Shown: positions 4,726 to 35,364, numbered from the stretch's first letter. The stretch: 42,105 nucleotides of DNA from Spartobacteria bacterium (GCA_003167555.1 PMSN01000002.1:1-42105); one strand, 5' to 3'. Numbers and translations are program-made. Notes: generated by a model from the sequence alone, not told the origin.

Positions 4726-5165
4726 TGTCTTCTTCGAACTTCTGTCGTTAGGCTGGTTGAAATGATTCGACGGAGTTTCTGAAGTAGTTGAGTTCGCTCT
4801 TTGCGAGCAAGCTCATGCTCCCACACTCGGAAAACAGTCCAGCCCTTCGCCCGCAGCGTCTGAGTTACGAGAACGTCCCGTGCTCGGTTCCTAGCGAGTT
4901 TTTCTTTCCAGAAATTCGCGTTGTTTGTCGGCTCCGTTGCGTGCTTCGGGCAGCAATGCCAAAAACACCCGTCAACGAATATCGCGAGTCTCAACTTGGG
5001 GAAAACGAAATCTGGCTTTCCGAATACCGCCCGATGCCTTCGCCAACCTGTGAAACCGTTTTCACGGAGCAATCGAGCGAGTGCAATTTCAGTGTCCTTA
5101 TTTCCACGCCCGCGAATTCTTCCCATCACGAGCGACCGTTTTTCTTTGGTGAAAACGTCGCTCAC
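4710..5165 (-). CDS. vsr: Very short patch repair endonuclease
   Basis: 151 residues, GTG start. Vsr endonucleases nick beside T:G mismatches that arise when 5-methylcytosine in a CCWGG-type site deaminates. Family motifs are all present: SLVMGRIRGRGNKDTEIALARLL at the N-terminus, RHRAVFGKPDFVFPKLRLAIFVDGCFWH with the catalytic Asp near residue 52, then CPKH and the WTVFRVWEHEL strand. It overlaps the stop of the nuclease gene as GTGA, so the methylase, nuclease and vsr form one translationally coupled unit. Its last residues are supplied by the 34-bp repeat, which suggests the original 3' end was replaced. Confidence 0.93.
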   Translation of the reverse strand: MSDVFTKEKRSLVMGRIRGRGNKDTEIALARLLRENGFTGWRRHRAVFGKPDFVFPKLRLAIFVDGCFWHCCPKHATEPTNNANFWKEKLARNRARDVLVTQTLRAKGWTVFRVWEHELARKERTQLLQKLRRIISTSLTTEVRRRHRKNF

Positions 5166-7566: not shown

Positions 7567-7578
7567 CTTCTGCTTAAC
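7558..7578. promoter_or_regulatory. Inverted repeat across the methylase start codon
   Basis: GTTAAGCA-tcttc-TGCTTAAC, with the methylase ATG at 7566-7564 inside it. It could be an operator for autoregulation of the modification gene, or an mRNA hairpin limiting its translation. Confidence 0.45.
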
Positions 7579-7634
7579 AGTCTGTCCGCTTCCTCAGCTT
7601 TTCCAAAGAAGTTTTTTCTTAAACCTCTCCTTTT

Positions 7635-10537: not shown

Positions 10538-10607
10538 ACGTTTTTCTTTAGAATCTGATTAGCTCCAACATGACCGATGAGCGGCGAACGTCCAATAGAC
10601 TCGAGAA

Positions 10608-11522: not shown

Positions 11523-11609
11523 TCCGAGCGGAGTCGAGGAACCCCGGTGCGAAGTTTGCCTGTAATGCAGCGGGATCCCTCGACTTCGCTGCGCTGCGCT
11601 CGGGATGAC
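11518..11609. repeat. Dispersed palindromic repeat upstream of prpB
   Basis: GTCATTCCGAGCGGAGTCGA at the left is mirrored by a right arm that reads TCGACTTCGCT...CGGGATGAC. The same family, with arms reading GTCATCCCGAGCGAAGTCGA, lies at 13073-13184. It fills nearly all the prpD-prpB gap, and its left arm includes the prpB start codon. Confidence 0.8.
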
Positions 11610-11628
11610 GGCCGATTTTTCAAAGTCA

Positions 11629-13020: not shown

Positions 13021-13072
13021 GAAAAAGTGACGCTGCAATCTGGCGATTAATCGCCGCGCGGCAACCTCAGCC

Positions 13073-13184
13073 GTCATCCCGAGCGAAGCGCAGCGGAGTC
13101 AACGGTCATCCCGAGCGAAGTCGAGGGACCCCGTGGAGAGTCGCTCGACTTGCGCCGGGGTTCCTCGACTTCGCTCGGAATGAC
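13073..13184. repeat. Compound dispersed palindrome between prpD and the CoA-transferase gene
   Basis: Three arms of the GTCATYCCGAGCGAAG...TCGA family occur: two direct (from 13073 and about 13105) and one inverted (ending 13184), plus CCCCGTGGAG...CCGGGG internal pairing. It fills most of the divergent intergenic region that must also hold both promoters. Confidence 0.8.
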
Positions 13185-13229
13185 AAAGCTTTCTTGATTC
13201 GTCCAATTCGTGGTTAAATCTCTTTCCAC

Positions 13230-14585
13230 ATGAGCAAAGTTTACTCAGACGCCACTGCGGCCCTGGCCGGCCTGCTCCACGACAACATGACGATTGCCGC
13301 GGGCGGGTTCGGGCTGTGCGGCATACCGGAGAACCTCATCGCCGCGTTGCACGGCAGCGGCGTGAAAGGCCTCACCATCGTCGGCAACAACGCGGGCGTG
13401 GATGGCTTCGGCATGGGCGTTTTGCTCACCACGCGACAGGTGAAAAAGGTCATGGCTTCCTATGTCGGCGAGAACAAGGAGTTCGAGCGCCAGGTGCTGG
13501 CGGGTGAACTCGAACTGGAGCTCATCCCGCAAGGCACACTCGCCGAGCGGTTGCGCGCGGGCGGCGCGGGGATCCCGGGATTTTACACTCGCACCGGCTT
13601 CGGCACCAAACTGACCGAGGGCAAGGAGACGAAAATCTTCGATGGTAAGGAATATGTGCTCGAACCCGGCATCCACGCCGAGGTCTCGCTCGTGAAGGCG
13701 TGGAAAGGCGACAAATCCGGCAACCTCATCTTTCGAAAAACCTCACGGAACTTTAACCCGATGATCGCCAGTTGCGGCCAGGTCTGCGTGGCAGAGGTCG
13801 AGCAACTGGTCGAGATCGGCGAACTCGATCCCGACCAGATTCACACGCCGGGTATCTTCGTTGATCGCATCATTCAAGGCCCGAGCTACGAAAAACGGAT
13901 CGAATTTCGGACCGTGCAGGGCAGCGCGGCGGCGAAAAAAGAAAATCCGATCCGCGATCTGATGGCGAAGCGCGCCGCGCAAGAGCTGCGCGACGGCTAC
14001 TATGTCAACCTTGGCATCGGTATCCCGACGCTGGTGGCCAATTACATTCCCGAAGGGATGAACGTCACGCTGCAATCCGAGAATGGCCTGCTCGGCATCG
14101 GCCCGTTCCCCACCGAGGAGGAAGTGGACGCCGACCTGATCAACGCCGGCAAGCAAACCATCACGACAATGCCCGGCTCCGCTTTCTTCTCGAGCGCCGA
14201 CTCGTTCACGATGATTCGCGGCGGACACATCGATCTCGCTATTCTCGGCGCCTTCGAGGTGACGGACAAAGGCGACATCGCCAATTGGATGGTTCCCGGC
14301 AAGATGGTCAAGGGCCCCGGTGGCGCGATGGACCTCGTCGCCGGAGTGAAGCGCGTGGTCGCGGTGCTCGAGCACTGCGCCAAGGACGGTAGCTCGAAGA
14401 TTTTGAAAGAATGCACCCTGCCGATCACGGGTTTGGGAGTCGTCAACCTCATCATCACCGACCTGTGCGTGTTCGAGGTGAAACCGGGAGGTGGGCTCGT
14501 CCTCACGGAGCTGCATCCCGGCGTCACGGTGGACGACATCCGCGCCAAGACCGGCGCACCCTTCGAGGTTGCGCTCGCGCGCTAG
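13230..14585 (+). CDS. Fused 3-oxoacid CoA-transferase (SCOT type, A and B domains in one chain)
   Basis: 451 residues. Moves CoA between succinyl-CoA and a short 3-oxo or fatty acid such as acetoacetate. The A domain (1-235) has [27 protein letters not shown] and [16 protein letters not shown]. The B domain starts near 240 ([13 protein letters not shown]) and holds the catalytic Glu 284 in [11 protein letters not shown], then [14 protein letters not shown]. Most bacteria have separate subunits; the A-B fusion recalls the eukaryotic enzyme. It is divergent from prpD. With the thiolase at 24.3 kb it could feed acetoacetate into acetyl-CoA; propionate:succinyl-CoA transfer is an alternative given the methylcitrate genes. 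Confidence 0.9.
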
Positions 14586-14587
14586 AC

Positions 14588-15153
14588 AAATGTGGGAGGG
14601 GCCTCAGTGCCCCGACTGCTGCAACTTAGTCGTAGATTAGCGGCCAAGGATCGGTAACCAGATCCTTACAGCTGGCACTACTTGCATCCCACTGCTCCGG
14701 TGAGCCCACAAATCCTTTCACCACCGGATTCTGCTCGATGTAGTAGGCAACGTACTCAAACTGCTTGGCCGTCTTGACGTGCGTGTCGTAATAGCCGTCC
14801 TGCCAAGCCGTGTCATGTGTGCTGAGGAAACGATCGGTCTTTTGGCCCACAAAACTCATCATGGCATGCATAAACTTGGGGAGCGTCCATGGCTCGCGTA
14901 ACGCGAAAAGCGCATGCCAGTGATCGGGCATGACAACGAAGGCGCGGAGGTAAATGCGGTTGTCTTCCACCGCGAAACGAAATGCGGCAACTATAATCGC
15001 GCGTGCTTCTGGATCGAGAGCTGGTCTCTTTGGATGTAGTGACTTAGTGATGAAGAAAGTGGCTGACGCATCCGCCCAGCGATGCAGACGCAGGCTTCGA
15101 GAATGAGCGTCCGAGCTCACGTTGGTCGGGGCACTGAGGCCCCTCCCACATTT
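14588..15153. mobile_element. REP-RAYT unit 1: transposase gene bracketed by inverted REP palindromes
   Basis: AAATGTGGGAGGGGCCTCAG... at 14588-14615 is repeated in exact inverted form at 15125-15153. Each arm is itself a hairpin (GGGGC-CTCAGT-GCCCC). The gene between encodes a Y1 transposase. A solitary relative of the same REP sits at 21457-21484. Confidence 0.85.
14626..15120 (-). CDS. REP-associated tyrosine transposase (RAYT, Y1/HUH family)
   Basis: 164 residues from the GTG at 15120, chosen because it overlaps the MFS stop as GTGA; the frame continues to 15297 but through the REP and MFS sequence. The HUH metal-binding motif is FVVMPDHWHALF, and the catalytic Tyr lies in KQFEYVAYYIEQNPV near the C-terminus. 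FITKSLHPKRP near the start and the WQDGYYDTHV strand fit the Y1_Tnp domain. RAYTs act on the REP palindromes around them and are usually domesticated single-copy genes. It rides on the transporter transcript. Confidence 0.85.
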   Translation of the reverse strand: MSSDAHSRSLRLHRWADASATFFITKSLHPKRPALDPEARAIIVAAFRFAVEDNRIYLRAFVVMPDHWHALFALREPWTLPKFMHAMMSFVGQKTDRFLSTHDTAWQDGYYDTHVKTAKQFEYVAYYIEQNPVVKGFVGSPEQWDASSASCKDLVTDPWPLIYD

Positions 15154-16424
15154 TCCCGCGGGCACATCAGCACCAGGACCGACGCGATCGTCCAGCATGC
15201 GATCATGAAGATAAAGCCATCGCGGAAGGAGCCTGTGCGCTGGCTCAACTCGCCGATGATTTTGGGGCCGAAAAATCCGCCGATGCTGGCCGTGCAATTA
15301 ATAAACCCCACCACCGCGGCGGCCGCGGAAGAGGATAGGAATGAACTGGGCAGCGCCCAGAACGAGGGCAGATAGGCGATCGTGCCGAAGACAACCAGCG
15401 AAAACACCGCCACCAGCATCGCGTTCGAAGGCGGGAGAAAGAACCACGCGCTCAGCGCCAGCGCTGCGGTCAATTGCGGGATGGCAAAGTGCCAGCGGCG
15501 TTCGCGCGTCCGATCGGAGTTCCAGCCCAGCAGGAGCATTCCGATAAGACCCGCGAGAAATGGGATCGCGCCGATCCAGCCCACGCGCTGCGTACTCCAG
15601 CCGGTGATCCGCTGGAGCATGGTCGGCATCCAAAACCAAAACGCGTAGCCCCCGCTATAACAGAAGAACAGCCCGACGGTGAGCAGCACGACCCGCCGAT
15701 CGCGGAGCGCTTGCCAAATCGTGACGCGCTCCTGGTTTGCTTTGACATCTCGCTCTTCGGTAAGGCGAGCTGCCAGCCAATCGCGTTCCTCAGCCCGCAA
15801 CCATCGCGCTTCGTTAGGCCGATCCGGCAGCACGAACAGCGTCGCTATTCCCAATAAGATCGCGGGCCCGCCTTCCAACAGGAAGAGCCATCGCCAGCCA
15901 GGAATGCCGCGCCACTGAATACCGAGGATGTAGCCGGCGAGAGGGCCGCCGAAGATATAAGCAATCGGAATCGCGGACATAAACAGTCCAACCGCCTTGG
16001 CCCGGTCCCGATAAATGAACCAGTGCGAAAGATACACGATGACGCCGGGAAAGAATCCGGCCTCGGCTGCACCCAGAAGGAAACGCGCGCCGTAAAGCTC
16101 CAGCGGCGTGCGCACAAAACCGGTGAGGGTTGTGAGCGCGCCCCAGGTGATCAGGGTTATCGCCAGGAGCAACCGGGCACTCCAGCGTTCCACCAACAGC
16201 GCCCCGGGAATTTGCAGCGCAAAATAGCCGATGAAGAAAATTCCGCTGGCCGTGCCGAACACCGAATCGGTCAGACCCACATCGCCTTTCATCCCCAGCG
16301 TCGCATACGCGATGTTGGTGCGATCGAGATAGTTCGCGACGTAAAGGAGGAAAAGAAACGGCAGGAGCCGCGCCGCGATTCGAGTGCGCGCACTTTCCCC
16401 AGCGTCTATTTGAGGAAAAGCCAT
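15117..16424 (-). CDS. MFS transporter, anion:cation symporter-like
   Basis: About 435 residues from the ATG at 16424; an ATG at 16439 is also possible and neither has a strong ribosome-binding site. Twelve hydrophobic helices are interpretable. LFLLYVANYLDRTNIAYA in helix 1 is the signature of the ACS family (hexuronate, tartrate, phthalate permeases); GAAEAGFFPGVIVYLSHW and WRWLFLLEGGPAILLG also match. A carboxylate substrate is likely. The last ~10 residues (VGGASVPRPT) and the stop come from the right REP arm of the RAYT unit, so the native C-terminus has been replaced. The loss seems tolerable because helix 12 is complete. Confidence 0.88.
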   Translation of the reverse strand: MAFPQIDAGESARTRIAARLLPFLFLLYVANYLDRTNIAYATLGMKGDVGLTDSVFGTASGIFFIGYFALQIPGALLVERWSARLLLAITLITWGALTTLTGFVRTPLELYGARFLLGAAEAGFFPGVIVYLSHWFIYRDRAKAVGLFMSAIPIAYIFGGPLAGYILGIQWRGIPGWRWLFLLEGGPAILLGIATLFVLPDRPNEARWLRAEERDWLAARLTEERDVKANQERVTIWQALRDRRVVLLTVGLFFCYSGGYAFWFWMPTMLQRITGWSTQRVGWIGAIPFLAGLIGMLLLGWNSDRTRERRWHFAIPQLTAALALSAWFFLPPSNAMLVAVFSLVVFGTIAYLPSFWALPSSFLSSSAAAAVVGFINCTASIGGFFGPKIIGELSQRTGSFRDGFIFMIACWTIASVLVLMCPRENVGGASVPRPT

Positions 16425-16523
16425 CGGTGCGCGCAGCATAAGGCGCGGGACGTGATGCTCACAATGTGAATCCCGCTCGAACGAGACTTGCCTTTGGCCG
16501 AATAAGCACACGAAAATACACGC

Positions 16524-16931
16524 ATGAAACTGCGCGCTCTTTTCACTTTAACGCTGACGTTGGTTCTTGGGGTGCACCTCTGCCTTGCCGGGGAAAATTG
16601 GGCCGGACAATACACTGACAAGAAATTCCTTGGCGGCCGGGCAGTGTTTCAGTTGAGCATCGAGCAATCAGGGAGCGCCATGCAGGTTTCCTTCGATGCT
16701 GTTTACAACGACGGACATGGTGCCGCGCCTGAAGCCGAAGGGCCCGCGAAGGTTTCCGGCAACACACTCACCTTCAAATTCGAAGACACCTTCAAGAACT
16801 CCGGGACCGGCACGATTACTCGCGCCGGCGATGACATCATCGTCTCGCTGAATCCGACGCACGTGGCAGATCCGCGCTGTCTCGCCTTTTATGGCAAGAA
16901 CATGCGGTTGAAGCGCGTGGTGAAAAAGTAG
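16524..16931 (+). CDS. Small secreted protein of unknown function
   Basis: 135 residues. A clear signal peptide (MKLRALFTLTLTLVLGVHLCLAG) is followed by a beta-rich domain with WAGQYTDKKFLGGRAVFQLSI, two Gly/Asn turns and a C-terminal basic RLKRVVKK. It is divergent from the MFS gene and followed by a REP pair. The pattern (binding of a small ligand by an antiparallel barrel) is typical of many bacterial periplasmic proteins of about 110 mature residues, but no family is recognised. Confidence 0.65.
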   Translation: MKLRALFTLTLTLVLGVHLCLAGENWAGQYTDKKFLGGRAVFQLSIEQSGSAMQVSFDAVYNDGHGAAPEAEGPAKVSGNTLTFKFEDTFKNSGTGTITRAGDDIIVSLNPTHVADPRCLAFYGKNMRLKRVVKK

Positions 16932-16965
16932 AGCGGTCCGTAAAATGGAAAGAACCTCCCTGTCC

Positions 16966-17036
16966 CGGCTCGACGGAGTCTCGCCCTACCAATTACGCAA
17001 GCACCTCTCCTGGTAGGGCGAGACTCTGTCGAGCCG
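16966..17036. repeat. REP pair (REPIN), family CGGCTCGACRGAGTCTCGCC
   Basis: Arm 16966-16991 and its near-perfect inverse 17011-17036 flank 19 bases. The second arm ends one base before the stop codon of RAYT 2. The same arms recur at 17501-17603 and 34025-34100. Confidence 0.88.
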
Positions 17037-17495
17037 CTAGCATCGAAGTTCATTAATGACGCCTTGATAGGGCCAATCCTCTGGCGTCTTCACTAAACCT
17101 ACTCTCACCGGGTTTGCCCTCACGTATTCCCATTTCTCAGCATAACTTTCCGCTCCCCGTAAGCGATGGTGAAAGCTTCCTGGTTGAAAACGCGGCGCGG
17201 CATTCCCAAGTTCGCGCCGAAATTCACGCTTCCAAAATGTAACCCACGGCTCGATCACGACGCTCTCATCCTTTGGCGAACAAAAGAAATGGATGTGATC
17301 CGGCATGATTACATAGGCGCCGATCATCCAAAAATCCGCGCTTTGCCAAGCTTGCCGTAGGGCCTCGTAAACTGTTGGATTCGCAAGCTGCTTCGCGCGC
17401 CCTTTCGCACAAACGGTGGCAAAAACGATCGTTGCTCGATCGAGAAAGATGAATACGCCTTTCGCTGGATGGCGTCGCTGTTTTAACTTTGCCAC
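17037..17495 (-). CDS. REP-associated tyrosine transposase 2 (RAYT)
   Basis: 152 residues from the GTG at 17495; the upstream in-frame ATG at 17552 would add residues encoded by the REP arm (LVGRDSVEPRD). HUH motif YVIMPDHIHFFCSP, catalytic-region Tyr in ESYAEKWEYVRANPVRVGL, and a C-terminal PEDWPYQG typical of RAYTs. REPIN pairs of the GGCTCGAC family border it on both sides, which matches the expected RAYT-REP partnership. It differs clearly in sequence from RAYT 1 and uses a different REP family. Confidence 0.85.
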   Translation of the reverse strand: MAKLKQRRHPAKGVFIFLDRATIVFATVCAKGRAKQLANPTVYEALRQAWQSADFWMIGAYVIMPDHIHFFCSPKDESVVIEPWVTFWKREFRRELGNAAPRFQPGSFHHRLRGAESYAEKWEYVRANPVRVGLVKTPEDWPYQGVINELRC

Positions 17496-17500
17496 ATCCC

Positions 17501-17603
17501 GCGGCTCGACAGAGTCTCGCCCTACCAGATTAGGAACTTGCGTCGATTGCATTCTGGTGGGGCTTCCATCTCTATTTGGTAGGGCGAGACTCCGTCGAGC
17601 CGC
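17501..17603. repeat. REP pair upstream of RAYT 2
   Basis: Arm 17501-17527 (GCGGCTCGACAGAGTCTCGC...) and inverse arm 17577-17603 are separated by about 49 bases. Same family as 16966-17036. The pair lies between the mutase stop (17609) and the RAYT start. Confidence 0.88.
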
Positions 17604-17608
17604 GACGC

Positions 17609-19435
17609 CTACACCATCGGCCGGAAATGGCCGACGATCTCTTGCAACCGGCCGGTAATTTGGCCTAACGAGCAGACCTCCACCGTCTCGATCAGCGTCG
17701 GGAAGAAATTCTCGCCGCGCTCGACCACGTCGCTCAACTTGTCGAGCGCGCGCTGGGCTTTCTCGGCATTTTTCTTTTTGAACTTCGCCAGCCGATCGAC
17801 TTGCAATTGTTTTTTCGCCCGCGGTGTTCGCACCATTTCCACTTCCGGCATTTCTTCTTTCGCGTTGGCGTATTTGTTCAAGGCGATGATCGGCCGGGTG
17901 CCGTCGTAAATCTGCTGCTCGTAACGGTGCGCCGCGTTTTGAATCTGGCTCCGTTGGTAGCGATGCTCGATCGCCGACAGGACGCCGCCGAGTTCTTCGA
18001 TCTGCCGGAACTCTTCGAGAATCGCCGCCTCGACCGCGCGCTCGACTGCCTTCATTCCCGGCGAACCGGTCAGCATGTTCATCGTGTGTTTGAAGATTCC
18101 GGACTCATCGAGCAGGATCGCCTGCCCGTGCGCGGCGAGCCGAATCCATTCTTCGCTCGGCGTCGTGAATGGTTCGTCGGCGCTGTTCGAATGGCACGAG
18201 TTCGTGCCGTTCATGTAGGCAAGCATCAACTCCGCCGCGGTGCGCGTGAGATTATTTTTGAATTCCGCCGCGACCAGCGACCGCCCGCTGGTCTGCGTGT
18301 GGAGCTTGAACATCTGCCCTTTCGGGCCGGCGCCAAACGCGTCGCGCATTCCGATCGCCCAGATTCGCCGCGACGCGCGCGCGAGCGCGATGTATTCGAC
18401 ATCGAGCCCGCAATCGAGGAAGAACGAAAGCCGCGGCCCGAATTGGTCGACTGAAATGCCGCGCTTGCTCAGCAACTCCGCGTAAGCAAATCCGTTCGAC
18501 AACGTATAGGCCGCCTGCTGCACCGGCGTCGCGCCAGCTTCGCCGATGTGATAACCGCTGATCGAGACCGGATACCAGCGGGGCATTTCGCGCGTCGTGA
18601 ATTCGATCATGTCGCAAAGGAAACGGAGCGACGCTTCGGTCGGGAAAATCGTTTCGTTCTGCGCCTGGACTTCCTTGAAAATGTCGGCCTGGATCGTGCC
18701 GCGCAGTTTTGGAATGACCGACGGCCCGAAGCGTTTCTTCGCCGCCGCGATGTACATCGCCATGATGATCGGCGCCGGTCCGCTGATCGTCATCGACGCG
18801 GAAAAGCTCGGCGAACCCATGTCGAATCCGTCGTAGAGGCGCACCATGTCTTCGTAGGTATCGATCGCGAGGCCGCCCTCGCCGATTTTTCCGAAGACGC
18901 CTTCCGCGTCGCTGTCGATGCCGTAAAGGGTCGGCCCATCGAAGGCCGTGCTGAGACGCGCGCTGCGCTGGTGTCCGGTCAGATAATGAAATCTCTCGTT
19001 GGTGTCTTCCGCGAGACCGAATCCGGAGAAAAGGCGCGTCGGTTCCTCCTGTTCCGCTTTCGGCGCCGGCTTTGTGCCGTTCTTGCCGTTCTTCCCGTTG
19101 CGTCCATTCTTGCCGTAACTCCCCTCCTCCGGTTCGCGCAACGGCTCGAGATACATTTCGCGGTAAGCGCCGTTCGTGAACGGAAATTCTCCCGGCAGAC
19201 CTTCACCTAAAAGATAGCGCGCGATCTCGCCGGCCTCATCGATCTCCGGCAATGCCAGACGCGGCAATTTCAAACCGGTCGGCGCGGTGCCGATCGGCGT
19301 GTTCGCTTTCACTTCATTCCAGCGATCGAGAAGTTTTTTCCCGAACGCTTTGTCCGACCGCGCACGTTTCACCTCATCGAGAACAAACTGATTGTAGTTC
19401 TCAACCGCTTCGACCACTCGTCCTAGCTTGCTCAT
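17609..19435 (-). CDS. Acyl-CoA mutase catalytic subunit, isobutyryl-CoA mutase (IcmF) type
   Basis: 608 residues from the ATG at 19435 (MSKLGRV). B12-dependent radical mutase, TIM-barrel domain only. FPFTNGAYREMY, EEPTRLFSGFG, RLSTAFDGPTLYG and SISGYHIGEAG (catalytic His ~296) place it in the mutase family, closest to the IcmF branch. By alignment from memory, the substrate pair that is Tyr/Arg in methylmalonyl-CoA mutase is Phe 136 (TRLFSGF) and Gln 259 (VQAQNET) here, the isobutyryl-CoA mutase pair. The B12 domain is missing from this chain and is supplied by the next gene upstream (19471-20628). Residues ~106-122 are an Asn-Gly-Lys repeat (GKNGRNGKNGKNG), a recent insertion. Pivalyl- or another branched acyl-CoA is also possible. 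Confidence 0.85.
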   Translation of the reverse strand: MSKLGRVVEAVENYNQFVLDEVKRARSDKAFGKKLLDRWNEVKANTPIGTAPTGLKLPRLALPEIDEAGEIARYLLGEGLPGEFPFTNGAYREMYLEPLREPEEGSYGKNGRNGKNGKNGTKPAPKAEQEEPTRLFSGFGLAEDTNERFHYLTGHQRSARLSTAFDGPTLYGIDSDAEGVFGKIGEGGLAIDTYEDMVRLYDGFDMGSPSFSASMTISGPAPIIMAMYIAAAKKRFGPSVIPKLRGTIQADIFKEVQAQNETIFPTEASLRFLCDMIEFTTREMPRWYPVSISGYHIGEAGATPVQQAAYTLSNGFAYAELLSKRGISVDQFGPRLSFFLDCGLDVEYIALARASRRIWAIGMRDAFGAGPKGQMFKLHTQTSGRSLVAAEFKNNLTRTAAELMLAYMNGTNSCHSNSADEPFTTPSEEWIRLAAHGQAILLDESGIFKHTMNMLTGSPGMKAVERAVEAAILEEFRQIEELGGVLSAIEHRYQRSQIQNAAHRYEQQIYDGTRPIIALNKYANAKEEMPEVEMVRTPRAKKQLQVDRLAKFKKKNAEKAQRALDKLSDVVERGENFFPTLIETVEVCSLGQITGRLQEIVGHFRPMV

Positions 19436-19449
19436 ATCTTTTTCAGCGC

Positions 19450-19470
19450 GGACGGCGCAGCGCGCCGTCC
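19450..19470. repeat. Short hairpin between the B12/GTPase and mutase genes
   Basis: GGACGGCGC-agc-GCGCCGTCC, a 9-bp perfect stem with a 3-base loop, directly after the TAG of the upstream gene and 15 bases before the mutase ATG. It lies inside a presumed operon, so it may tune the ratio of the two subunits or stabilise the downstream mRNA rather than terminate. Confidence 0.6.
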
Positions 19471-20628
19471 CTACCTTTTCTCCAGCAACAAATCGCACAA
19501 TTCGTCCACGCCTGCATCCCGATGCCGGTTCGCGACGGTCGAGACCGTCGTCTGCGAGCGTTTATTCTGGTCGAGCCGCCGCTCGATTTCCGAAATGGCC
19601 GTGCGCGCCCGCTCCTGATCGCTCTTGTTCACGACAACGATATCGGCCAAATCGAGCATGACGATCTTCTGCAATTGGAGCCGGCTTCCATAATCGGGAT
19701 TCATCACGAGCACCGTTTTATCGACGAGCCCCATCTGGAACGGCATCGCTTCCTGACCCGTCCCGACAGTCTCGATGATCACGTAATCGAAATCCGAATG
19801 CGCCAGGAGCTGCAAACAATCTTCCGTCGCCGGCGAAAGGCCGCCCGCCTGTCCGCGCGTGGCCATGCTCCGCATAAAGACGCGCTCGTCCTGCGAATTG
19901 ATCATCGTCGCGCGATCTCCCAGTAGTGCGCCCAAACCCACCACGCTCGGATCATGCGAAAGAATCGCGATCCGCACCTTCGGTTCCCGATTCAACAATC
20001 GCAAGACCAGCTCATCGATCAACGTCGTCTTCCCCGCTCCACCCGGTCCCGTAAATCCAAAAACACGCGTCCCACTTTTCCTGCCGCTCTTTTTTCCTTT
20101 CGGCATTCGGCGTTGGGCGTTGGGCATCGGGCGTTTTCTTTTTCCCCCCGCGTAGGAGTCCTCTATCTCCGTCAGCTTCCGCGCCAGCTTCATCTCCGCC
20201 GTCGGCGCTTTTCCTCCGCGCTTCCGCGCCCCGCCATAATGCTGGTGGACGTAATCCACCATCTCGCTCAGCGGCGTTCCCGCGAAAAAAATCTTGTCCA
20301 CGCCCTTCCGCCGCATGGCGGCCGCGTCCACTGTCGTGATCGTGCCGCCGCCGCCGCCGAAAAGCTTGATGTAATCCGCGCCCTGTTTTTTCAACAACGC
20401 AGCCACCTCGGAAAAGAACTCCACGTGTCCGCCGTTGTAACTCGAGATGCCGAGCGCGCGCACATCTTCCTGGATCGCGGCGCGCACCATGTCCGTGGCG
20501 TAGCGGTGGTATCCCATGTAAACGACTTCGATCCCGTGCCGAATGAATTCGAGATTGATCGTGTTGATGGCGCTGTCGTGCCCGTCGCAGATCGGCACAG
20601 CAGTGAGAACTCGGATCGGAGCAGCCAT
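19471..20628 (-). CDS. B12-binding domain fused to MeaB-type G-protein chaperone (N-terminal half of a split IcmF)
   Basis: 385 residues. Residues 1-135 are a cobalamin-binding domain: PICDGHDSAINTIN (His ligand in the D-x-H motif, with Ala where methylmalonyl mutase has Gly), ISSYNGGHVEFF and KLFGGGGGTITT. After a linker comes a MeaB/MeaI GTPase: P-loop GPGGAGKTTLIDEL, LSHDPSVVG, ETVGTGQEA (switch II) and VVNKSD. This domain order is that of IcmF minus its mutase part, which is encoded next door. The linker (KRKRPMPNAQRRMPKGKK) is coded by a heptamer repeat. The GTPase would load and protect adenosylcobalamin on the mutase. Confidence 0.88.
   Translation of the reverse strand: MAAPIRVLTAVPICDGHDSAINTINLEFIRHGIEVVYMGYHRYATDMVRAAIQEDVRALGISSYNGGHVEFFSEVAALLKKQGADYIKLFGGGGGTITTVDAAAMRRKGVDKIFFAGTPLSEMVDYVHQHYGGARKRGGKAPTAEMKLARKLTEIEDSYAGGKRKRPMPNAQRRMPKGKKSGRKSGTRVFGFTGPGGAGKTTLIDELVLRLLNREPKVRIAILSHDPSVVGLGALLGDRATMINSQDERVFMRSMATRGQAGGLSPATEDCLQLLAHSDFDYVIIETVGTGQEAMPFQMGLVDKTVLVMNPDYGSRLQLQKIVMLDLADIVVVNKSDQERARTAISEIERRLDQNKRSQTTVSTVANRHRDAGVDELCDLLLEKR
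20109..20137. repeat. Heptamer array inside the B12/GTPase gene
   Basis: CGTTGGG twice, then CATCGGG and CGTTTTC, within the coding sequence and in frame, so it adds a basic linker between domains. Same unit as the array at the prpB 3' end. Confidence 0.75.
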
Positions 20629-25792: not shown

Positions 25793-27340
25793 ATGGCACG
25801 ACTTCACGAATATCAAGGCAAGGCCATTCTCGCCGCCAACGGATTCAAGATTCCACGCGGCCGCGCCGCTTCGACCGCCGATGAGGCTGTGGCGGTGGCC
25901 AACGAACTCGCGAGCAAGAAGGGCAGCGAAGTGGTTATCAAGATTCAAGCCTGGACGACCGGCCGCGCCGGTATTGGCGGCGTGGCCTTCGCCAAAAAAC
26001 CGGCTGATGTTCGCGCACACGCTTCGCGCATGCTTGCGATGAAAGTTGGACAGTTTCCCGTCGAGGCTGTGTTGGTGGAAGAAAAGATCCAGATCGAGCG
26101 GGAGTTTTTTCTTTCGTTCGCCATTGATGATGCCGCTCGCGCTCCGGTGATTATTTTCGCCGCCGGCGGCGGCAGCGGAATTGAAGAGCGCGCCGCTTCG
26201 ACCCGGCGCATCGCCTGCGATGTGAAAAGCGGACCGCTGGATTCCGCCGTTAACGAAGCCGCCGGTTCTTGCGGGCTTTCGCCGGCGCATGCGACGCAAC
26301 TCGCCGAGTCGATTCAAAAACTATTTGGAGCCGCGCGCAGTGTTGAGGCCCGGTCGCTTGAAATCAATCCGCTGGCGCTGACCAGGGAAGGCGAATTCAT
26401 CGCCGCCGACTGCCGCATCACAATTGACGACTACGCCGTGGCGCGTCATCCGGAGCTGAAGATTGAAATTGCGCGCGAGTTCGATCATCCGCCTACCGCT
26501 CTGGAACGCGTCGCCTACGCCGCCGAGCAAAGCGATCATCGCGGCACATTTTATTTCGCGCAGCTGGCCACCACGGCGGCGAAGGATTCCAAAGGCCTGG
26601 TTGGTTTTCACGGCGCTGGCGGCGGCGGATCCATGATGTCCATGGACGCCATCGTGAACGCGGGATTCACCATCGCGAATTTCACCGACACCAGTGGCAA
26701 TCCATCCGCTTCCAAGGTCTATCGCGCCAGCCGGATTATTTTGGCGCAACCCGACCTGGTTGGGTATTTCGGTTCCGGATCCGGCGTCGCGAGCCAGGAA
26801 CAATATTGGTCCGCGTATGGACTAGCCAAAGCATTCTGGGAACTCGATTTGGATATCCCCGCCGTGATTCGATTAGGCGGCAACACCGAAGATCGCGCCG
26901 TGGATATTTTGCAACGAACGTCCAAACTGCTTCGCGCGCCAATCGAAGGCTATCGCAAGACCGACGCGCCGGCCACGATTGCCGGCCGCTTCGCAGAACT
27001 TGTCGCGGGCGCGGGCGGCACCAAATGGAAACCGCGCGCTCCGCGTGTGCCGAAGTTCGTCAAAGATAAATCCGCCACCATGCTTCCCGTGAAAAGCGGC
27101 CGGGTGTGGATCGACACCGCGAAGTGGCCGCAGATTTGCCGCGCCGTCGAGACACATTCGGGCGGATTGATCGTGGACCGCGATGGGGCGCCAACGTCAG
27201 CGTCGTCGAGTGAAGAGTTTGCCAATAAAGATTCCGAGTTGCTCGCGTGCGATGTCGAGTGTCGACTCGAAGGAGTTGAAGGCTTTTACTTGGAACTCGA
27301 TATTCCAGGGCTGGACGAACTGATTGGAGGCGCGCGCTAG
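25793..27340 (+). CDS. aclB: ATP-citrate lyase / citryl-CoA synthetase, SucC-like ATP-grasp subunit
   Basis: 515 residues. Residues 1-~235 are a SucC-type ATP-grasp: MARLHEYQGKAILAANGFKIPRGR, VVIKIQAW, VLVEEKIQIEREFFLSFAIDD, EINPLALTREGEFIAADCRITIDD. Residues ~245-390 are the flavodoxin-like CoA-ligase domain (LVGFHGAGGGGSMM, VIRLGGNTEDRAVDIL). The last ~115 residues (from about VPKFVKDKSATMLPVKSG) are an extension I do not recognise, absent from SucC and from short AclB. The stop abuts the ATG of the next gene. Together they would convert citrate, ATP and CoA to acetyl-CoA and oxaloacetate. Plain succinyl-CoA ligase is unlikely because the partner carries a citryl-CoA lyase domain. Confidence 0.8.
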   Translation: MARLHEYQGKAILAANGFKIPRGRAASTADEAVAVANELASKKGSEVVIKIQAWTTGRAGIGGVAFAKKPADVRAHASRMLAMKVGQFPVEAVLVEEKIQIEREFFLSFAIDDAARAPVIIFAAGGGSGIEERAASTRRIACDVKSGPLDSAVNEAAGSCGLSPAHATQLAESIQKLFGAARSVEARSLEINPLALTREGEFIAADCRITIDDYAVARHPELKIEIAREFDHPPTALERVAYAAEQSDHRGTFYFAQLATTAAKDSKGLVGFHGAGGGGSMMSMDAIVNAGFTIANFTDTSGNPSASKVYRASRIILAQPDLVGYFGSGSGVASQEQYWSAYGLAKAFWELDLDIPAVIRLGGNTEDRAVDILQRTSKLLRAPIEGYRKTDAPATIAGRFAELVAGAGGTKWKPRAPRVPKFVKDKSATMLPVKSGRVWIDTAKWPQICRAVETHSGGLIVDRDGAPTSASSSEEFANKDSELLACDVECRLEGVEGFYLELDIPGLDELIGGAR

Positions 27341-29053
27341 ATGGCGATTCTAATCGACGAGACCAAGCGCGTTTTAGTGCAAGGCATCACCGGACGTGAA
27401 GGTCAGGCGCGGACACGACTGATGCGCGAGTACGGAACGAATGTTGCCGCGGGTGTGACGCCCGGAAAAGGAGGACAGACTGTACTCGGCGTGCCCGTAT
27501 TCAATTCGCCGCAGGACGCGGTGAAGGCTCTGGGCAAGATCGACATCTCCGTGCTTTTTGTACCGGCGGCCGGCGTGAAGGACGCGGCCATCTCGGCGAT
27601 TGAAGCGGGCATCAAACTCACTGTGCTGGTGCCCGATCGCGTCCCTGTTTGGGATGCGATGGAGATTGCAGCGGCGGCCAAAGCGAATGGCGCGATGTTT
27701 CTTGGACCAAACACACTTGGTGTGTTGAGCCCCGGTAAGGGCGTGGTCGGGATGATCGGCGGTCGCGCGGAAAGCGCGCGACAATGGTTCAAGCCCGGCC
27801 TTCCGACTGGCGTCGGAGTAGTCAGTCGCTCCGGCGGCATGGCTGCGAGCACGGGCTACTACCTGGGACAGGCGGGAGTGCGCATTTCGACCATCGCGCA
27901 CATTGGCGGCGACGCGGTCCTTGGAATTCGTATCCCCGATGCGGCACTGATGTTTGAAGCCGATCCGCTCACCGAAGCCATCGTCATCTTTGGTGAAATT
28001 GGTTCGTCGCAGGAAGAGGAATTGGCGCAGTTGATTCACGATCGAAAAGTGACCAAGCCGGTGATCGCATACATCGGCGGCAAAGCAGCGCGCGAAGGCA
28101 CGCGCTTTAGTCACGCTGGCGCGATCATTGAAGGTGGTCGCGGCACGCACGCCGGCAAAGTGAAGGCGTTGCGCGAGGCCGGCGCTACCGTAGTCGATGC
28201 GTTCGGTGAACTGCCGGATGCCGTGGTTGATATTCTCAAACGCATAAATGGAAAAAGTCTCATGAGTGAAACCGACAAGAACGCTGTGTGGAACACCGCC
28301 GTAACGAGGATTGAGCCCAATCGGGTCGCGGTGCGCGGATACGACATCGCCGATCTGATGGGGCGCGCCTCCTTTGGCGCCGCCGTGCATCTAATTTTGA
28401 CCGGCGAATTGCCGTCGCCTGCTATCGGACGCTTGATGGACGCGATCTTAGTGGCGTCGATCGATCACGGCGCGACGCCACCAAGCGCACTGGCCGCGCG
28501 AACAGTCGCATCCACGGGCGCCTCATTGAGCGCTTCGGTCGCCGCCGGCATCATGTCGATCAATCGTCATCACGGCGGCGCCATCGAAGATTGCGCCCGG
28601 CAACTGAAAAAAATCGCCGATCTCGCCGCGAGTGAATCCATTTCGATGGATGAAGCCGCTACGCGCACGCTCGCCGGGATCAAGGAAGCGGGCGATCGCA
28701 TGCCGGGATTTGGCCATCGCTATCACACCAAGGATCCTCGCACCGCGCGGCTGTTCGAGCTGGCACGCGAAGCCGGCGTGGATGGGACTCACATGAAAGC
28801 GGCGCGGGCCGTGGAAAAATCTTTCGCCGATGCGAAGAAACCGCTCCCCATCAATGTGGACGGCGCCATCGGAGCCATCCTTGCCGATCTAGGAATGAAT
28901 CCCGCGGCCTTCAACGGTATTTTCATGATCGCGCGAACGCCCGGACTAGTTGCGCACGTCATCGAAGAACAAACGCGCGAGAAACCGATGCGCCGAATTG
29001 ATCCCGTCAAACACGGCTATGACGGGCCTCCTCCCAGGAACGTTCCCGAGTAA
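27341..29053 (+). CDS. aclA: ATP-citrate lyase large subunit: SucD-like domain fused to citryl-CoA lyase
   Basis: 570 residues. Residues 1-~300 are SucD-like: LVQGITGREGQARTRLM, GVTPGKGGQTVLGVPVFN, VSRSGGMAAS and the phospho-His 258 in RFSHAGAIIEGG. Residues ~310-570 are a compact citrate-synthase-fold lyase: VAVRGYDIADLMGRASFGAA, SIDHGATPPSALAARTVASTG, His 411 in HHGGAIED, His 459 in GFGHRYHTKDPR and Asp 507 in NVDGAIGA. This is the CcsB-CCL fusion expected of an ATP-citrate lyase. Direction in vivo may be citrate cleavage or, as in some oxidative users of this enzyme, citrate formation with ATP gain. Confidence 0.85.
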   Translation: MAILIDETKRVLVQGITGREGQARTRLMREYGTNVAAGVTPGKGGQTVLGVPVFNSPQDAVKALGKIDISVLFVPAAGVKDAAISAIEAGIKLTVLVPDRVPVWDAMEIAAAAKANGAMFLGPNTLGVLSPGKGVVGMIGGRAESARQWFKPGLPTGVGVVSRSGGMAASTGYYLGQAGVRISTIAHIGGDAVLGIRIPDAALMFEADPLTEAIVIFGEIGSSQEEELAQLIHDRKVTKPVIAYIGGKAAREGTRFSHAGAIIEGGRGTHAGKVKALREAGATVVDAFGELPDAVVDILKRINGKSLMSETDKNAVWNTAVTRIEPNRVAVRGYDIADLMGRASFGAAVHLILTGELPSPAIGRLMDAILVASIDHGATPPSALAARTVASTGASLSASVAAGIMSINRHHGGAIEDCARQLKKIADLAASESISMDEAATRTLAGIKEAGDRMPGFGHRYHTKDPRTARLFELAREAGVDGTHMKAARAVEKSFADAKKPLPINVDGAIGAILADLGMNPAAFNGIFMIARTPGLVAHVIEEQTREKPMRRIDPVKHGYDGPPPRNVPE

Positions 29054-29368: not shown

Positions 29369-29968
29369 ATGACAACAACCCAAGGAACCAGCTACGGCGT
29401 CAACGAAATTGCGGAACTCTTTCCCAGCCTGCTGAAGGTCAAGGTCGAGTCGCTGCGCGAAAAGGTGGCTGCGGTGTGGAACGAGGCGATCACCACGGGC
29501 TGCGGCGGCAAGGGCTGGACCTTCGACGAACTGCGCGCGGTCAAGTTCACGCTGCTGGCCGGCGACATCGACATGACGTTCGTCGAGCATCTCAATTCCT
29601 GCGCGCTACAATGCATCGCCATCGCGGATGTGCTGGAGAGTTCGTTCCGCTGCGGCATTCCCGTCCAGCGAGACTATCTCATCGCCGGCGCGCTCCTGGC
29701 CGACGTGGGCAAGCCGCTGGAGTTTGATAAGGACGCTTCTGGCAAGGTGATTCAGGGTACGTTCGGGCAGCAAGTGCGGCATCCGTTCACCGGCGTCGCG
29801 CTTGCCTACAAGCACGGCATTCCCGGTGAAGTCATGCACATGATCGCCACTCACAGTCATGAGGGCGACAAGATGGAGCGCTCGATCGAGTCGATTATTT
29901 TTCATCACGCCGACTTCGTGGACTTCGATATCGCCAAGCTTCTAGGCAAGCGCGCCGCCAAGAAGTAA
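29369..29968 (+). CDS. HD-domain phosphohydrolase-like protein
   Basis: 199 residues. HD-superfamily metal ligands are recognisable in order: a first His in TFVEHLNSCALQCIAIAD, LLADVGKPLEFD, HPFTGVALAYKHG and the closing IATHSHEGD with FHHADFVDFD. Such proteins hydrolyse phosphate esters of nucleotides or related compounds, or act as signal hydrolases. It is the last gene of the acl transcript (6 bases after the small protein) and precedes a clear terminator. Substrate unknown. HD motifs are somewhat degenerate at the first HD pair. Confidence 0.7.
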   Translation: MTTTQGTSYGVNEIAELFPSLLKVKVESLREKVAAVWNEAITTGCGGKGWTFDELRAVKFTLLAGDIDMTFVEHLNSCALQCIAIADVLESSFRCGIPVQRDYLIAGALLADVGKPLEFDKDASGKVIQGTFGQQVRHPFTGVALAYKHGIPGEVMHMIATHSHEGDKMERSIESIIFHHADFVDFDIAKLLGKRAAKK

Positions 29969-31875: not shown

Positions 31876-32022
31876 CGACTGGTCGTTTCCGCTCTTGCCG
31901 CATTCACTCTGCTCATCAAGCGACAACCAGCTGCACTGCGTCAATCAAATTGGGTCGCTGCCGGTTGACGCCTCATTGAGATGCGCTTTCTATGGAAAGG
32001 AGATTCGAATGGAAGAACTGAT

Positions 32023-33999
32023 ATGGGCCTGACACTCGTCGAGAAAATTGCCGCAAGGCATGCGGATGGGCTCGCTCCGGGCGCAATCGTCCGCGCGGGA
32101 GATTTCGTTTCGATTCGGCCGCGCCATGTCATGACGCACGACAACACCGGTGCGGTGATCCCGAAGTTCAAGCAGATCGGCGCGATGGCGATCGCGGATC
32201 CAGCGCAACCGGTCTTCGCGATCGATCACGACATCCAAAATGTCACGCCGAAGAACCTGGAGAAGTACGCCAAGATTGAAGCGTTCGCCCGCGAGCAAGG
32301 TGTAGATTTTTACCCGCCCGGCACCGGCATTTCGCATCAGGTGATGGTGGAGCAGGGTTATGTGGTTCCCGGCGCCCTGGTGGTGGCGAGCGATTCGCAC
32401 TCCAACTTGTACGGCGCCATGGCTGCACTCGGCACGCCGGTTGTTCGGACGGACGCCGCGAGTATTTGGGCCACTGGTGTCACCTGGTGGCAGGTCCCGA
32501 AAGTCGCGAAGGTGGTGCTGAAAGGAAATCTTTCCGCGGGCGTCACCGGCAAGGATGTCATCATCGCGTTGTGCGGCCTCTTCAACAAAGACGAGGTGCT
32601 CAATCACGCCGTTGAATTCATGGGGGATGGCGTGGCGAATCTTCCCATGTCCGCGCGCTTGACCATTGCCAACATGACTACTGAATGGGGCGCGCTGGCG
32701 GGCGTGTTTCCATTCGATGAAGTGACGATGAATTATTTGCGCTCGCGTGTCGGCCAGTTCACCAATCCCGGACGGCCGGGAACGCGCGGCGCCACGAGTC
32801 GCTCCGGCTACACCAACGCCGACATCGCTGCATGGTGGAACGATCGCGCGAACTTGAGCGCGGACGCCGAGGCCGACTACGCCATCGAACTGGAACTGGA
32901 TCTGGCGACGGTGGTTCCGCACGTGTCCGGTCCCAATGAAGTGAAAACCATGGTCTCGTTGCCGGAAATGGTGCGGAAACATGTGCCCATTCAGAAAGCG
33001 TATCTGCTGTCATGCGTGAACGCGCGCTTCGAGGATTTGCATGAGGCCGCGGAAGTGGTGCGCGGCCGCGGCGGACGTGTGGCCGCGGGTGTCGAATTCT
33101 ATCTCGCGGCGGCGAGTGCCGAAGTGCAGGCCCGGTCCGAGTCCAATGGTGATTGGAACACTTTAGTCGATGCTGGCGCCATTCCCCTGCCACCCGGTTG
33201 CGGAACCTGCATCGGTCTGGGTCGCGGTCTGGTCGGGAAAGGCGAAATCGCGATCAGCGCGACCAATCGTAATTTCAAGGGACGCATGGGCGATCCCGAT
33301 GCCCAGGTATATCTGGGTTCGCCCGCCGTCGTTGCGGCCAGCGCGCTGGCTGGATTTATTTGCGCGCCGCAAACATTCACGGATCGCGCAGCCGGCATCA
33401 CCATTCGACGCGCGCAAAGCAAACCGCCGTCGAACGTTTCCGTCGAGATCATCGACGGCTTTCCGCCAAGCCTGCGCGGTCGCGTTCTCTTTATCGACAA
33501 AGACAATTTGAACACGGACGGCATTTTCGCCGGCAAGCACACCTATCGCGACGATATCACGCCCGAAGAGATGGCCGCGGTAACGTTTGAAAATTACGAT
33601 CCGAATTTCAACGCGCTCTATCGCAAGGGCGACGTCGTGGTGGGTGGACTCAACTTTGGTACTGGCTCCAGCCGCGAACAGGCGGCCACGGCGCTGAAGT
33701 TCAAGGGTATTCCCTGCGTCATTGCCGGCAGTTTCTCCGAAACCTATAAGCGCAACGCGTTCAACAACGGCTTTGTGGTGTTCGAGTGTCCTGAACTGGT
33801 CACGCACCTTCGCGCGACGCTCGCCGATCGCGCGCCCACGACGGTCGCATCCGAGATCACAATCGATTACGGCAAATCCATGTTGACCATCGATGGAAAA
33901 TCATTTGCCTTTCCGCCGCTCAGTCCAGCAGCCCAGGAATTGATCGTCGCCGGAGGCGCCGAAAATCTGGTGGCCGCACGGCTTCGTAAGAAAGCGTAG
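32023..33999 (+). CDS. Aconitase-superfamily hydratase, closest to fused homoaconitase
   Basis: 658 residues from the ATG at 32023 (MGLTLVEKIAARH). Reversible hydration at a [4Fe-4S] cluster; ligands Cys 331 (LLSCVNARF), Cys 393 and Cys 396 (GCGTCIGLG). LDHDIQN-like AIDHDIQN, VASDSHSNLYG, TPVVRTDAASIWATG, LCGLFNKDEVLNHA, RLTIANMTTEWGAL and ISATNRNFKGRMG are very close, as I recall them, to fungal Lys4 homoaconitase. The swivel domain (FGTGSSREQAATAL, SGSFSE-like) is fused at the C-terminus. Substrate could be citrate/isocitrate, as its neighbours suggest, or homocitrate. Confidence 0.85.
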   Translation: MGLTLVEKIAARHADGLAPGAIVRAGDFVSIRPRHVMTHDNTGAVIPKFKQIGAMAIADPAQPVFAIDHDIQNVTPKNLEKYAKIEAFAREQGVDFYPPGTGISHQVMVEQGYVVPGALVVASDSHSNLYGAMAALGTPVVRTDAASIWATGVTWWQVPKVAKVVLKGNLSAGVTGKDVIIALCGLFNKDEVLNHAVEFMGDGVANLPMSARLTIANMTTEWGALAGVFPFDEVTMNYLRSRVGQFTNPGRPGTRGATSRSGYTNADIAAWWNDRANLSADAEADYAIELELDLATVVPHVSGPNEVKTMVSLPEMVRKHVPIQKAYLLSCVNARFEDLHEAAEVVRGRGGRVAAGVEFYLAAASAEVQARSESNGDWNTLVDAGAIPLPPGCGTCIGLGRGLVGKGEIAISATNRNFKGRMGDPDAQVYLGSPAVVAASALAGFICAPQTFTDRAAGITIRRAQSKPPSNVSVEIIDGFPPSLRGRVLFIDKDNLNTDGIFAGKHTYRDDITPEEMAAVTFENYDPNFNALYRKGDVVVGGLNFGTGSSREQAATALKFKGIPCVIAGSFSETYKRNAFNNGFVVFECPELVTHLRATLADRAPTTVASEITIDYGKSMLTIDGKSFAFPPLSPAAQELIVAGGAENLVAARLRKKA

Positions 34000-34100: not shown

Positions 34101-34212
34101 GAGGGATCGCGGCGCATCCGAAGAGAAGAATCCATCCGTGCGATCTGCGTAATCCGCGGTAATTGGATGCCGCTGCTTGCAGGTCGTAACGCTCCCCGAT
34201 AAAGTCGCCACC

Positions 34213-35364
34213 ATGTCGAAATACAAAATTGCGTGGATGCCCGGTGACGGAGTTGGCAATGATGTAATGGAGGCCGCGCGCATCGTCTTGGATCGCATGA
34301 AGCTCGATGCCGAGTATGTGCCTTGCGATATCGGCTGGGATTTTTGGTGCAAGGAAGGCAACGCGCTTCCCGATCGCACCGTCAAAGCTCTTAAGGAAAC
34401 TACGTGTGGTCTCTTCGGCGCCATCACGAGCAAGCCGCAAAGTGAAGCCAAGGAAGAATTAATTCCAGAGCTCAAGGACAAGGGGCTGGTCTACTTCTCG
34501 CCCATCGTCAAGCTGCGCCAGATGTTCAATCTGCACACCAACATGCGGCCGTGCAAAAGCTATCCCGGCAACCCGTTGAATTATCGCGGCACCAAGATCG
34601 CCAATCCCAGCGGCGCGGATATCCCAATCGATCAAGTCGTGTTCCGCGAAAATACCGAAGGCATGTACGGCGGCGTCGAGTTCTTCCCACTACCAGAGCC
34701 GGTCTACACGGCGTTGTGCGCCAATCCGAAGATGAAGCCGTGGAAAGACAAGGGACTCGAGAATGTCGCGCTCTCCACCCGCATCATGAGCAAGCAAGGT
34801 TGCACCAACATCTGCAAACAAGCCTTCGAGTTCGCCAAGAAGACCGGACGCAAGCGCGTCACGCTGATTGAGAAACCAAATGTATTGCGTGAGACCGGCG
34901 GCCTGATGATGCGTTGCTTCAAGGACGTGGCCAAGAGTTACCCGGACATCCGGGCGGACGACGCGAACATCGACGCCATCTGTATGTGGATGTTCAAGAA
35001 TCCGCAGGATTATTCGGTGCTCGTCGCGGAAAATATGTTCGGCGACATCGTCAGCGATTTGTGTGCCGGCCTGGTGGGCGGGCTCGGTTTCGCGCCCAGC
35101 GCTAATCTCGGCGATAACTACGCCGTCTTTGAACCAACGCATGGATCGGCGCCGAAATACGCCGGTCAATACAAGGTCAATCCGATCGCGATGCTCCTGA
35201 CGGCTAAGCTGATGCTCGACTGGCTCAAGGAAACCGACATGGCCACGCGCCTCGAAGCCGCCGTTGCCCGCGTCATCGGGGAAGGCAAAGTGCGCACGTA
35301 CGATATGGGAGGAAAGGATTCCACGCTCGACGTTGCAAAAGCGATTGCGGACTACGCCACTTGA
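34213..35364 (+). CDS. Isocitrate / homoisocitrate-type beta-decarboxylating dehydrogenase
   Basis: 383 residues from the ATG at 34213. NAD(P)-linked oxidative decarboxylation of a 2-hydroxy acid, or the reverse carboxylation. Family landmarks: WMPGDGVGNDVMEAA, TNMRPCKSYPG (substrate Arg), VVFRENTEGMYGG, IEKPNVLRETGG, VAENMFGDIVSDLCAGLVGGLGFAPSAN split across the active-site Asp residues, and EPTHGSAPKYAGQYKVNP (cofactor loop). Position after the homoaconitase-like gene makes isocitrate or homoisocitrate the likely substrate; isopropylmalate is less likely since no leu genes are near. Its 3' end is duplicated downstream. Confidence 0.85.
   Translation: MSKYKIAWMPGDGVGNDVMEAARIVLDRMKLDAEYVPCDIGWDFWCKEGNALPDRTVKALKETTCGLFGAITSKPQSEAKEELIPELKDKGLVYFSPIVKLRQMFNLHTNMRPCKSYPGNPLNYRGTKIANPSGADIPIDQVVFRENTEGMYGGVEFFPLPEPVYTALCANPKMKPWKDKGLENVALSTRIMSKQGCTNICKQAFEFAKKTGRKRVTLIEKPNVLRETGGLMMRCFKDVAKSYPDIRADDANIDAICMWMFKNPQDYSVLVAENMFGDIVSDLCAGLVGGLGFAPSANLGDNYAVFEPTHGSAPKYAGQYKVNPIAMLLTAKLMLDWLKETDMATRLEAAVARVIGEGKVRTYDMGGKDSTLDVAKAIADYAT

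Follow-up and report, generated by a model that had tools for sequence, protein, structure and literature searches.

A probable ATP-citrate lyase with a ferredoxin-like appendage in a Spartobacteria bacterium, apparently fused separately from classical AclAB

Two adjacent genes, here called aclS and aclL, in a 42,105-nt stretch from a soil Spartobacteria bacterium (GCA_003167555.1 PMSN01000002.1:1-42105; hereafter the window) most likely encode a functional ATP-citrate lyase (ACL), judging from their sequences. The best explanation for the whole, which can be held with good confidence, is a heteromeric ACL that forms part of a cassette unit and was fused separately from classical AclAB. ACL marks the reverse tricarboxylic acid (rTCA) cycle and supplies eukaryotes with cytosolic acetyl-CoA. 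How it arose from citryl-CoA synthetase (CCS) and citryl-CoA lyase (CCL) is a standing question. The family described here shows both states together: in some members SucD and CCL are independent genes, at times with the stop codon of one overlapping the start codon of the other, and in other members they form one gene that still carries a Met at the former CCL start. This makes it possible to locate the fusion on a tree and to put it to a direct test. The probably separate fusion suggests that a central metabolic enzyme was assembled more than once, and what is read here as a ferredoxin remnant connects the splitting of citrate with a poorly known ligase that bears a ferredoxin. The features of the lyase are as follows.

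25793..27340, + strand: aclS, SucC-like small subunit, 515 aa (Pfam/profile, PDB-sequence and AlphaFold superposition matches), with ATP-grasp (residues 3-~215), CoA-ligase/citrate-binding (~220-405) and putative degenerate ferredoxin (~412-515) domains
27029..27337, + strand: C-terminal degenerate ferredoxin-like domain of AclS (103-residue model and cysteine-bearing relative)
27341..29053, + strand: aclL, large subunit, 570 aa, fusion of SucD (1-~302) and citryl-CoA lyase (~311-570) (profile and structure-sequence matches)
28247..28291, + strand: AclL fusion junction, residues ~303-317 (NGKSLMSETDKNAVW) (alignment with free-standing CCLs)

The initial annotation had described two adjacent open reading frames in a verrucomicrobial host, a small subunit made of SucC with an additional C-terminal domain, and a large subunit made of SucD fused to a compact CCL, all of which is borne out. 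The TAG stop of aclS immediately precedes the ATG of aclL, and both genes are 82-95% conserved in related genomes. A gene-prediction artefact is discounted on account of this conservation, and contamination on account of the gene order from the Prp genes to the isocitrate dehydrogenase (IDH) gene, which is kept in the related genome G003, and of the presence of the cassette in several further assemblies. AclS matches the Pfam family ATP-grasp_2 at 1.2e-35 (residues 3-195), while Citrate_bind (PF16114) stays below its gathering score (25.2 vs 26.8 bits). Its sequence matches include Thermus succinyl-CoA synthetase (SCS) beta (3.9e-42), the large subunit of Hydrogenobacter CCS (4.2e-26) and Chlorobium ACL (2.4e-20), and in the AlphaFold model residues 2-401 superpose on SCS beta with a Z score of 30.7. 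The SucC part finishes near residue 405 and is followed by ~105 more residues, close to the ~115 originally claimed. In AclL, residues 1-300 are SucD (261.7 bits), with the phospho-His motif FSHAGA at 256-261, and residues 316-569 are CCL, passing three NCBIfam cut-offs (259 vs 212, 253 vs 245 and 202 vs 193).

The proposed reaction is citrate + ATP + CoA = acetyl-CoA + oxaloacetate + ADP + Pi, in which the SucC and SucD halves would form citryl-phosphate and then citryl-CoA via a phospho-histidine (the His within the FSHAGA motif of SucD), and the fused CCL domain would cleave citryl-CoA (H376, H411, H459, R460, R467, D507, R532). The best solved-structure match of the CCL domain is the Hydrogenobacter CCL (3.4e-57), and the CCL catalytic residues are unchanged in all 53 of 53 family members. 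In the citrate-site region of the small subunit CCS is the top match, with SCS narrowly behind, and AclS has the motifs GGGGS and ANFTDxxGNPxAxKxY in common with CCS. Catalysis by AclS and AclL, and citrate as their substrate, are predicted from these comparisons.

Among characterised systems, Hydrogenobacter thermophilus CCS (6HXQ) and CCL (6HXP) are close in the lyase domain (45% identical, where Chlorobium AclB reaches 28% and Methanothrix ACL 27%), which agrees with the proximity to Hydrogenobacter CCL noted in the initial annotation, and in the ligase the GGGGS and ANFTDxxGNP motifs are shared with the window's enzyme. However, CCL is a separate protein in Hydrogenobacter and fused in the window, and the large CCS subunit (429 aa) is too short for an extra domain of the AclS type. 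Classical (type I) AclAB, such as that of Chlorobium limicola (6HXJ), also has two subunits with the same SucD-CCL order, and the same overall reaction is expected of the window's fused large subunit, whose CCL catalytic residues are intact. In contrast, the classical small subunit has 398 aa and no extra domain, whereas the extra domain of AclS begins at ~412, and the histidine of an HGG motif kept by family members is replaced in the two classical ACLs, which have FGG.

The additional domain of AclS had been called unrecognised, and residues 420-515 indeed match no Pfam family, but its fold and a cysteine-bearing relative make it identifiable as a degenerate ferredoxin. Modelled alone (103 residues), it adopts a beta-alpha-beta-beta-alpha-beta arrangement with a predicted local distance difference test score (pLDDT) of 91. 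After alignment of Foldseek candidates with VIA-align, the top four were ferredoxins, and seven of the top eight were ferredoxins or ferredoxin-like Fe-S domain proteins, the top matches (Z 4.5-5.2) being Pyrococcus ferredoxin, Hydrogenobacter Fd1, Desulfovibrio FdI, hydrogenase CpI and formylmethanofuran dehydrogenase subunit F. The likeness to 2[4Fe-4S] and related ferredoxins (2Z8Q, 7M1N, 1FXR) extends across the entire ferredoxin, although the AclS domain is without the cluster-binding cysteines. The most distant full-length relative (L030/L029, from a different family of the same phylum, 38-40% identity) keeps them: the C-terminus of L030 reads CEGCSSLACVKAC...CVECLACEHEC and has two ferredoxin-type motifs, CxxCx4Cx3C and CxxCxxCx3C, with all eight Cys, and Pfam Fer4 matches on L030/L029 are weak but consistent. 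At the corresponding alignment positions AclS and its kin have KDSELLACDVEC, with the majority of the cysteines lost, and AclS has neither four-cysteine motif, retaining only LACDVEC (ACDVEC) of the second (CxxCxxCxxxC). Two points weigh against a ferredoxin origin, namely that Foldseek alone gave no significant match for the domain and that the ferredoxin structure matches are modest (Z ~5). From the structure matches and the cysteine-bearing homologue taken together, the domain is read here as a ferredoxin stripped of its clusters. A cysteine-bearing form was also sought in Planctomycetota, where four matches in 392 genomes all had cysteine-poor C-termini, including that of G445, the genome of locus L083.

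The region around the L030 gene (534-9662, genome G204) is a methylaspartate cluster with genes for a regulator, a B12-binding mutase subunit, a MutL-like protein, a mutase-like large subunit, methylaspartate ammonia-lyase, the SucC with the intact 8-Cys ferredoxin domain, SucD and a CitE-like lyase. This gene content suggests that the cluster may encode a ferredoxin-bearing citramalate- or mesaconate-CoA ligase.

In Planctomycetota the SucC-like partner is accompanied by a fused gene at some loci and by unfused SucD and CCL genes at others (12 loci of the CCL set are of the unfused kind). The SucD stop and CCL start overlap by 4 bases in three split loci (L089, L090 and L113), and in the remaining split loci the two genes are 35-82 bp or more than 1 kb apart. 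Fused proteins read ...SLM(S/T)(E/D)...AVW.TA(V/I)T.I.P at the junction, many free-standing CCLs start with MSE...W.T(A/G)(I/V)T.I.P, and the internal Met of AclL (SLMSE) aligns with the start Met of the free-standing forms (MSE...W). On this alignment, the former CCL start Met persists as an internal Met in the fused proteins. Trees of SucC+SucD were built with FastTree on all 63 rows and with IQ-TREE on 35 rows; the rooted IQ-TREE topology has one large fused clade (100/99) that holds the window, with split forms branching below and weak support among the split lineages. One planctomycete protein, L115, has another linker (HGIPLVSREAQAAMAAQNPNAW) between its two parts and clusters among split forms in the SucD tree (99/96) and the SucC+SucD tree (53/90), and for these two reasons the fusion probably occurred twice within the family. 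Set against this, a single event is not rejected when all fused forms of the family are forced together (approximately unbiased test, p-AU 0.121). The proposed course is that a ligase of SucCD type, carrying a ferredoxin domain at its C-terminus, would have adopted citrate together with a separate CCL, that the ferredoxin would then have shed its cysteines to become a structural appendage, and that SucD and CCL would have been fused in Planctomycetota, probably via close-set or overlapping stop and start codons.

The SucD-CCL fusion of this family is likely to be independent of that in classical AclAB. In the SCS-rooted SucD tree classical ACL falls outside the entire family and its unfused ferredoxin-bearing relative (98/92), and a topology that unites it with the main fused clade is rejected by the data (p-AU 0.027); the best tree of SucD and CCL combined likewise places classical ACL outside (93/92). 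The initial annotation had instead seen a hypothetical step between CCS plus CCL and classical AclAB, which would require a single fusion and a later loss of the C-terminal domain from AclAB. That proposal implies family members in which SucD and CCL are unfused, and these are found, but the fused form looks parallel, and a single fusion is considered unlikely. It is favoured by a domain order identical to that of AclB and by an insertion and an SGG motif common to the SucD domains of the family and of classical ACL and absent from the SCS sequences compared. Two phylogenetic results also count against separate origins: the combined SucD and CCL test does not reject a shared fusion (p-AU 0.159), and when the CCL-only tree is given citrate synthase as outgroup, classical ACL falls inside the fused clade (94/99, branch length 10). 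The latter placement is probably a long-branch effect. The CCL trees contain only three outside ACL/CCL sequences and show long branches and an unstable position of Hydrogenobacter CCL. Besides the SucD and combined trees, a single event is opposed by the junctions: in one, the Met that begins CCL in closely related split forms is retained, and L115 has a junction of another kind. A wider scenario, for and against which the balance is about even, is that ACL was put together on three or more occasions, one of them giving classical AclAB and two taking place in Planctomycetota from a family of ferredoxin-carrying SucCD-type ligases, another branch of which lies in the methylaspartate cluster, with the declustered ferredoxin kept as a scaffold and the cassette later moved to soil Verrucomicrobiota.

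The architecture, which had been called intermediate, is not new as such. In 2017, Thiel et al. (PMC5459899) described split (OTU-14) and fused (Planctomycetes bacterium DG20) citrate-cleaving enzymes and placed them between CCS/CCL and type II ACL; by that account these planctomycete enzymes consist, as here, of SucC-like, SucD-like and CCL parts. The window family differs in occurring also in Verrucomicrobiota, and adds the ferredoxin remnant, the repeat fusion and the cassette. Type II ACL, as in Magnetococcus marinus (Mmc1_3638/3639) and tubeworm symbionts, has been postulated as a further kind of ACL for bacteria that lack the classical genes (PMC3522073, PMC6783814). The second junction, decayed ferredoxin, cassette and verrucomicrobial occurrence are not mentioned in the open-access papers searched and, like the repeat fusion, appear to be new.

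Downstream of the lyase genes, the cassette continues with three further genes.

29369..29968, + strand: HD-domain (HDIG) protein gene, a neighbour of the lyase kept in Verrucomicrobiota and Planctomycetota
31981..33999, + strand: Lys4-like aconitase-family gene of the cassette; homologues start near residue 12-14
34177..35364, + strand: isocitrate/homoisocitrate-dehydrogenase-family gene of the cassette

The order AclS-AclL (or SucD and CCL), HD, Lys4-like aconitase and IDH-type gene recurs across both phyla. The Lys4-like aconitase was found in 16 of 58 relatives, all within the 20 lyase carriers and in none of the 38 non-carriers (Fisher p 6e-11), and the dehydrogenase orthologue in 15 of the 58, again all lyase carriers, with a 57-58% paralogue in two genomes besides. 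An operon of ACL, aconitase and IDH is known in Thermovibrio (PMC5441870). The lyase, aconitase and IDH of the cassette may act as a unit linking 2-oxoglutarate, isocitrate, citrate, and acetyl-CoA plus oxaloacetate. The aconitase scores over the NCBIfam homoaconitase cut-off (730 vs 530 bits), and automatic annotation will therefore likely say homoaconitase, whatever its true substrate. A gene of the MmgE/PrpD family (32-34% to PrpD) often follows the dehydrogenase (L067, L069, L078, L079, L082, L089, L090, L098 and G003 (L032 9691)).

Several observations weigh against citrate as the substrate or against the lyase assignment itself. The SucD domain of AclL scores SCSs above CCS or ACL, no biochemistry on this lyase family was found in the open-access papers searched, and the aconitase and dehydrogenase of the cassette are as similar to homoaconitase and homoisocitrate dehydrogenase as to TCA cycle enzymes, which means that the substrate may be a homologue of citrate. 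An ATP-dependent lyase acting on homocitrate or 2-methylcitrate, with the cassette enzymes serving as homoaconitase and homoisocitrate dehydrogenase or in propionate metabolism, is nevertheless rather improbable. The homoaconitase model passed by the aconitase speaks for it, as do homoisocitrate dehydrogenase being the top model of the dehydrogenase (though under the cut-off), methylcitrate cycle and methylmalonyl-CoA mutase genes upstream within the window, and the MmgE/PrpD gene after the cassette in some relatives. However, the lyase half is 45% identical to a CCL of solved structure and has every CCL catalytic residue, the propionate genes that lie upstream in the window were not seen next to planctomycete cassettes, and the best PDB matches of the dehydrogenase are isocitrate dehydrogenases, with homoisocitrate dehydrogenase almost tied. 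That a succinyl- or malyl-CoA synthetase/lyase has been misread as a citrate enzyme is very improbable: SCS is the top-scoring relative of the SucD part, but the same genome has a separate SucCD beside gltA, the fused domain is CCL under curated models, and the citrate-site motifs are common to CCS.

Following a check proposed in the initial annotation, the window genome was searched for 2-oxoglutarate:ferredoxin oxidoreductase and citrate synthase. It has three POR_N-family 2-oxoacid:ferredoxin oxidoreductase-like genes, two full citrate synthases (gltA, which adjoins sucCD, and a second among the Prp genes), 2-oxoglutarate dehydrogenase (OGDH), and second genes of the aconitase and IDH families. 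On this evidence the host is not an obligate rTCA autotroph, since it has citrate synthases, sucCD and OGDH, and with its own citrate synthases and TCA genes the lyase would therefore be a second citrate node. A SucD-CCL fusion proves neither classical AclAB nor autotrophy: a full-length citrate synthase is present in 22 of 22 lyase carriers searched and OGDH above cut-off in 19 of 22. The direction in vivo is guessed to be citrate cleavage, giving acetyl-CoA and oxaloacetate. The same enzyme might also run towards citrate as an energy-saving citrate synthase (acetyl-CoA + oxaloacetate + ADP + Pi -> citrate + ATP), a proposal that concerns direction and not identity and is somewhat unlikely; the host has oxidative TCA cycle genes, and ATP is reportedly made by an ACL during acetate oxidation in Desulfobacter postgatei (Moller et al. 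1987, as listed in PMC9560492), but such a role would be redundant with the citrate synthases of all 22 genomes.

The propionate block of the window (9401-20628) contains methylcitrate synthase-like, PrpB-like, PrpD-like, CoA transferase, methylmalonyl-CoA mutase and MeaB genes, and its order is conserved in G003. The window genome (G000, 98% complete) has only two aconitase-family and two Iso_dh-family genes, and leucine synthesis may be absent, as none appears to be LeuC or LeuB. Genes for an MvaI/BcnI-type restriction enzyme, a C5 cytosine methylase and an adjacent phage-type integrase lie at 5162-8735 and were not seen at the matching site in G003 (L031).

When 84,980 species genomes were scanned for the family, 203 relatives emerged, the best 80 of which are soil metagenome-assembled genomes (MAGs) of Chthoniobacterales (one labelled Ca. 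Udaeobacter) and Planctomycetota, mostly Phycisphaerales. No paper linking Udaeobacter and citrate lyase was found among the open-access papers searched. A 387-genome sample of the window's phylum gave three matches only: the window genome itself, a further member of the family, and the relative with the ferredoxin. The small subunit is present in 20 of 58 close relatives, all 20 belonging to the window's own family; the lyase is present in about half of one Chthoniobacterales family. A plasmid collection searched with the small subunit yielded only SucC or malate-CoA-ligase-like matches at ~30% identity. In G006, of the same genus, a 57-residue stump of the large subunit (89%) lies near a matching conserved thiolase (L033 10900-11193), and the small subunit, HD, aconitase and dehydrogenase genes were not found there, which is evidence of loss of the whole cassette. 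The verrucomicrobial sequences nest with those of freshwater Planctomycetota in the rooted SucC+SucD tree (100/100), and for this reason the fused cassette likely moved from Planctomycetota to one Chthoniobacterales family. Four records labelled Leptolyngbya, Cyanobacteria, Vicinamibacteraceae and Acidobacteria (L097, L105, L109 and L041) have lyase genes of Phycisphaerales or Chthoniobacterales type and are probably mislabelled or mixed MAGs.

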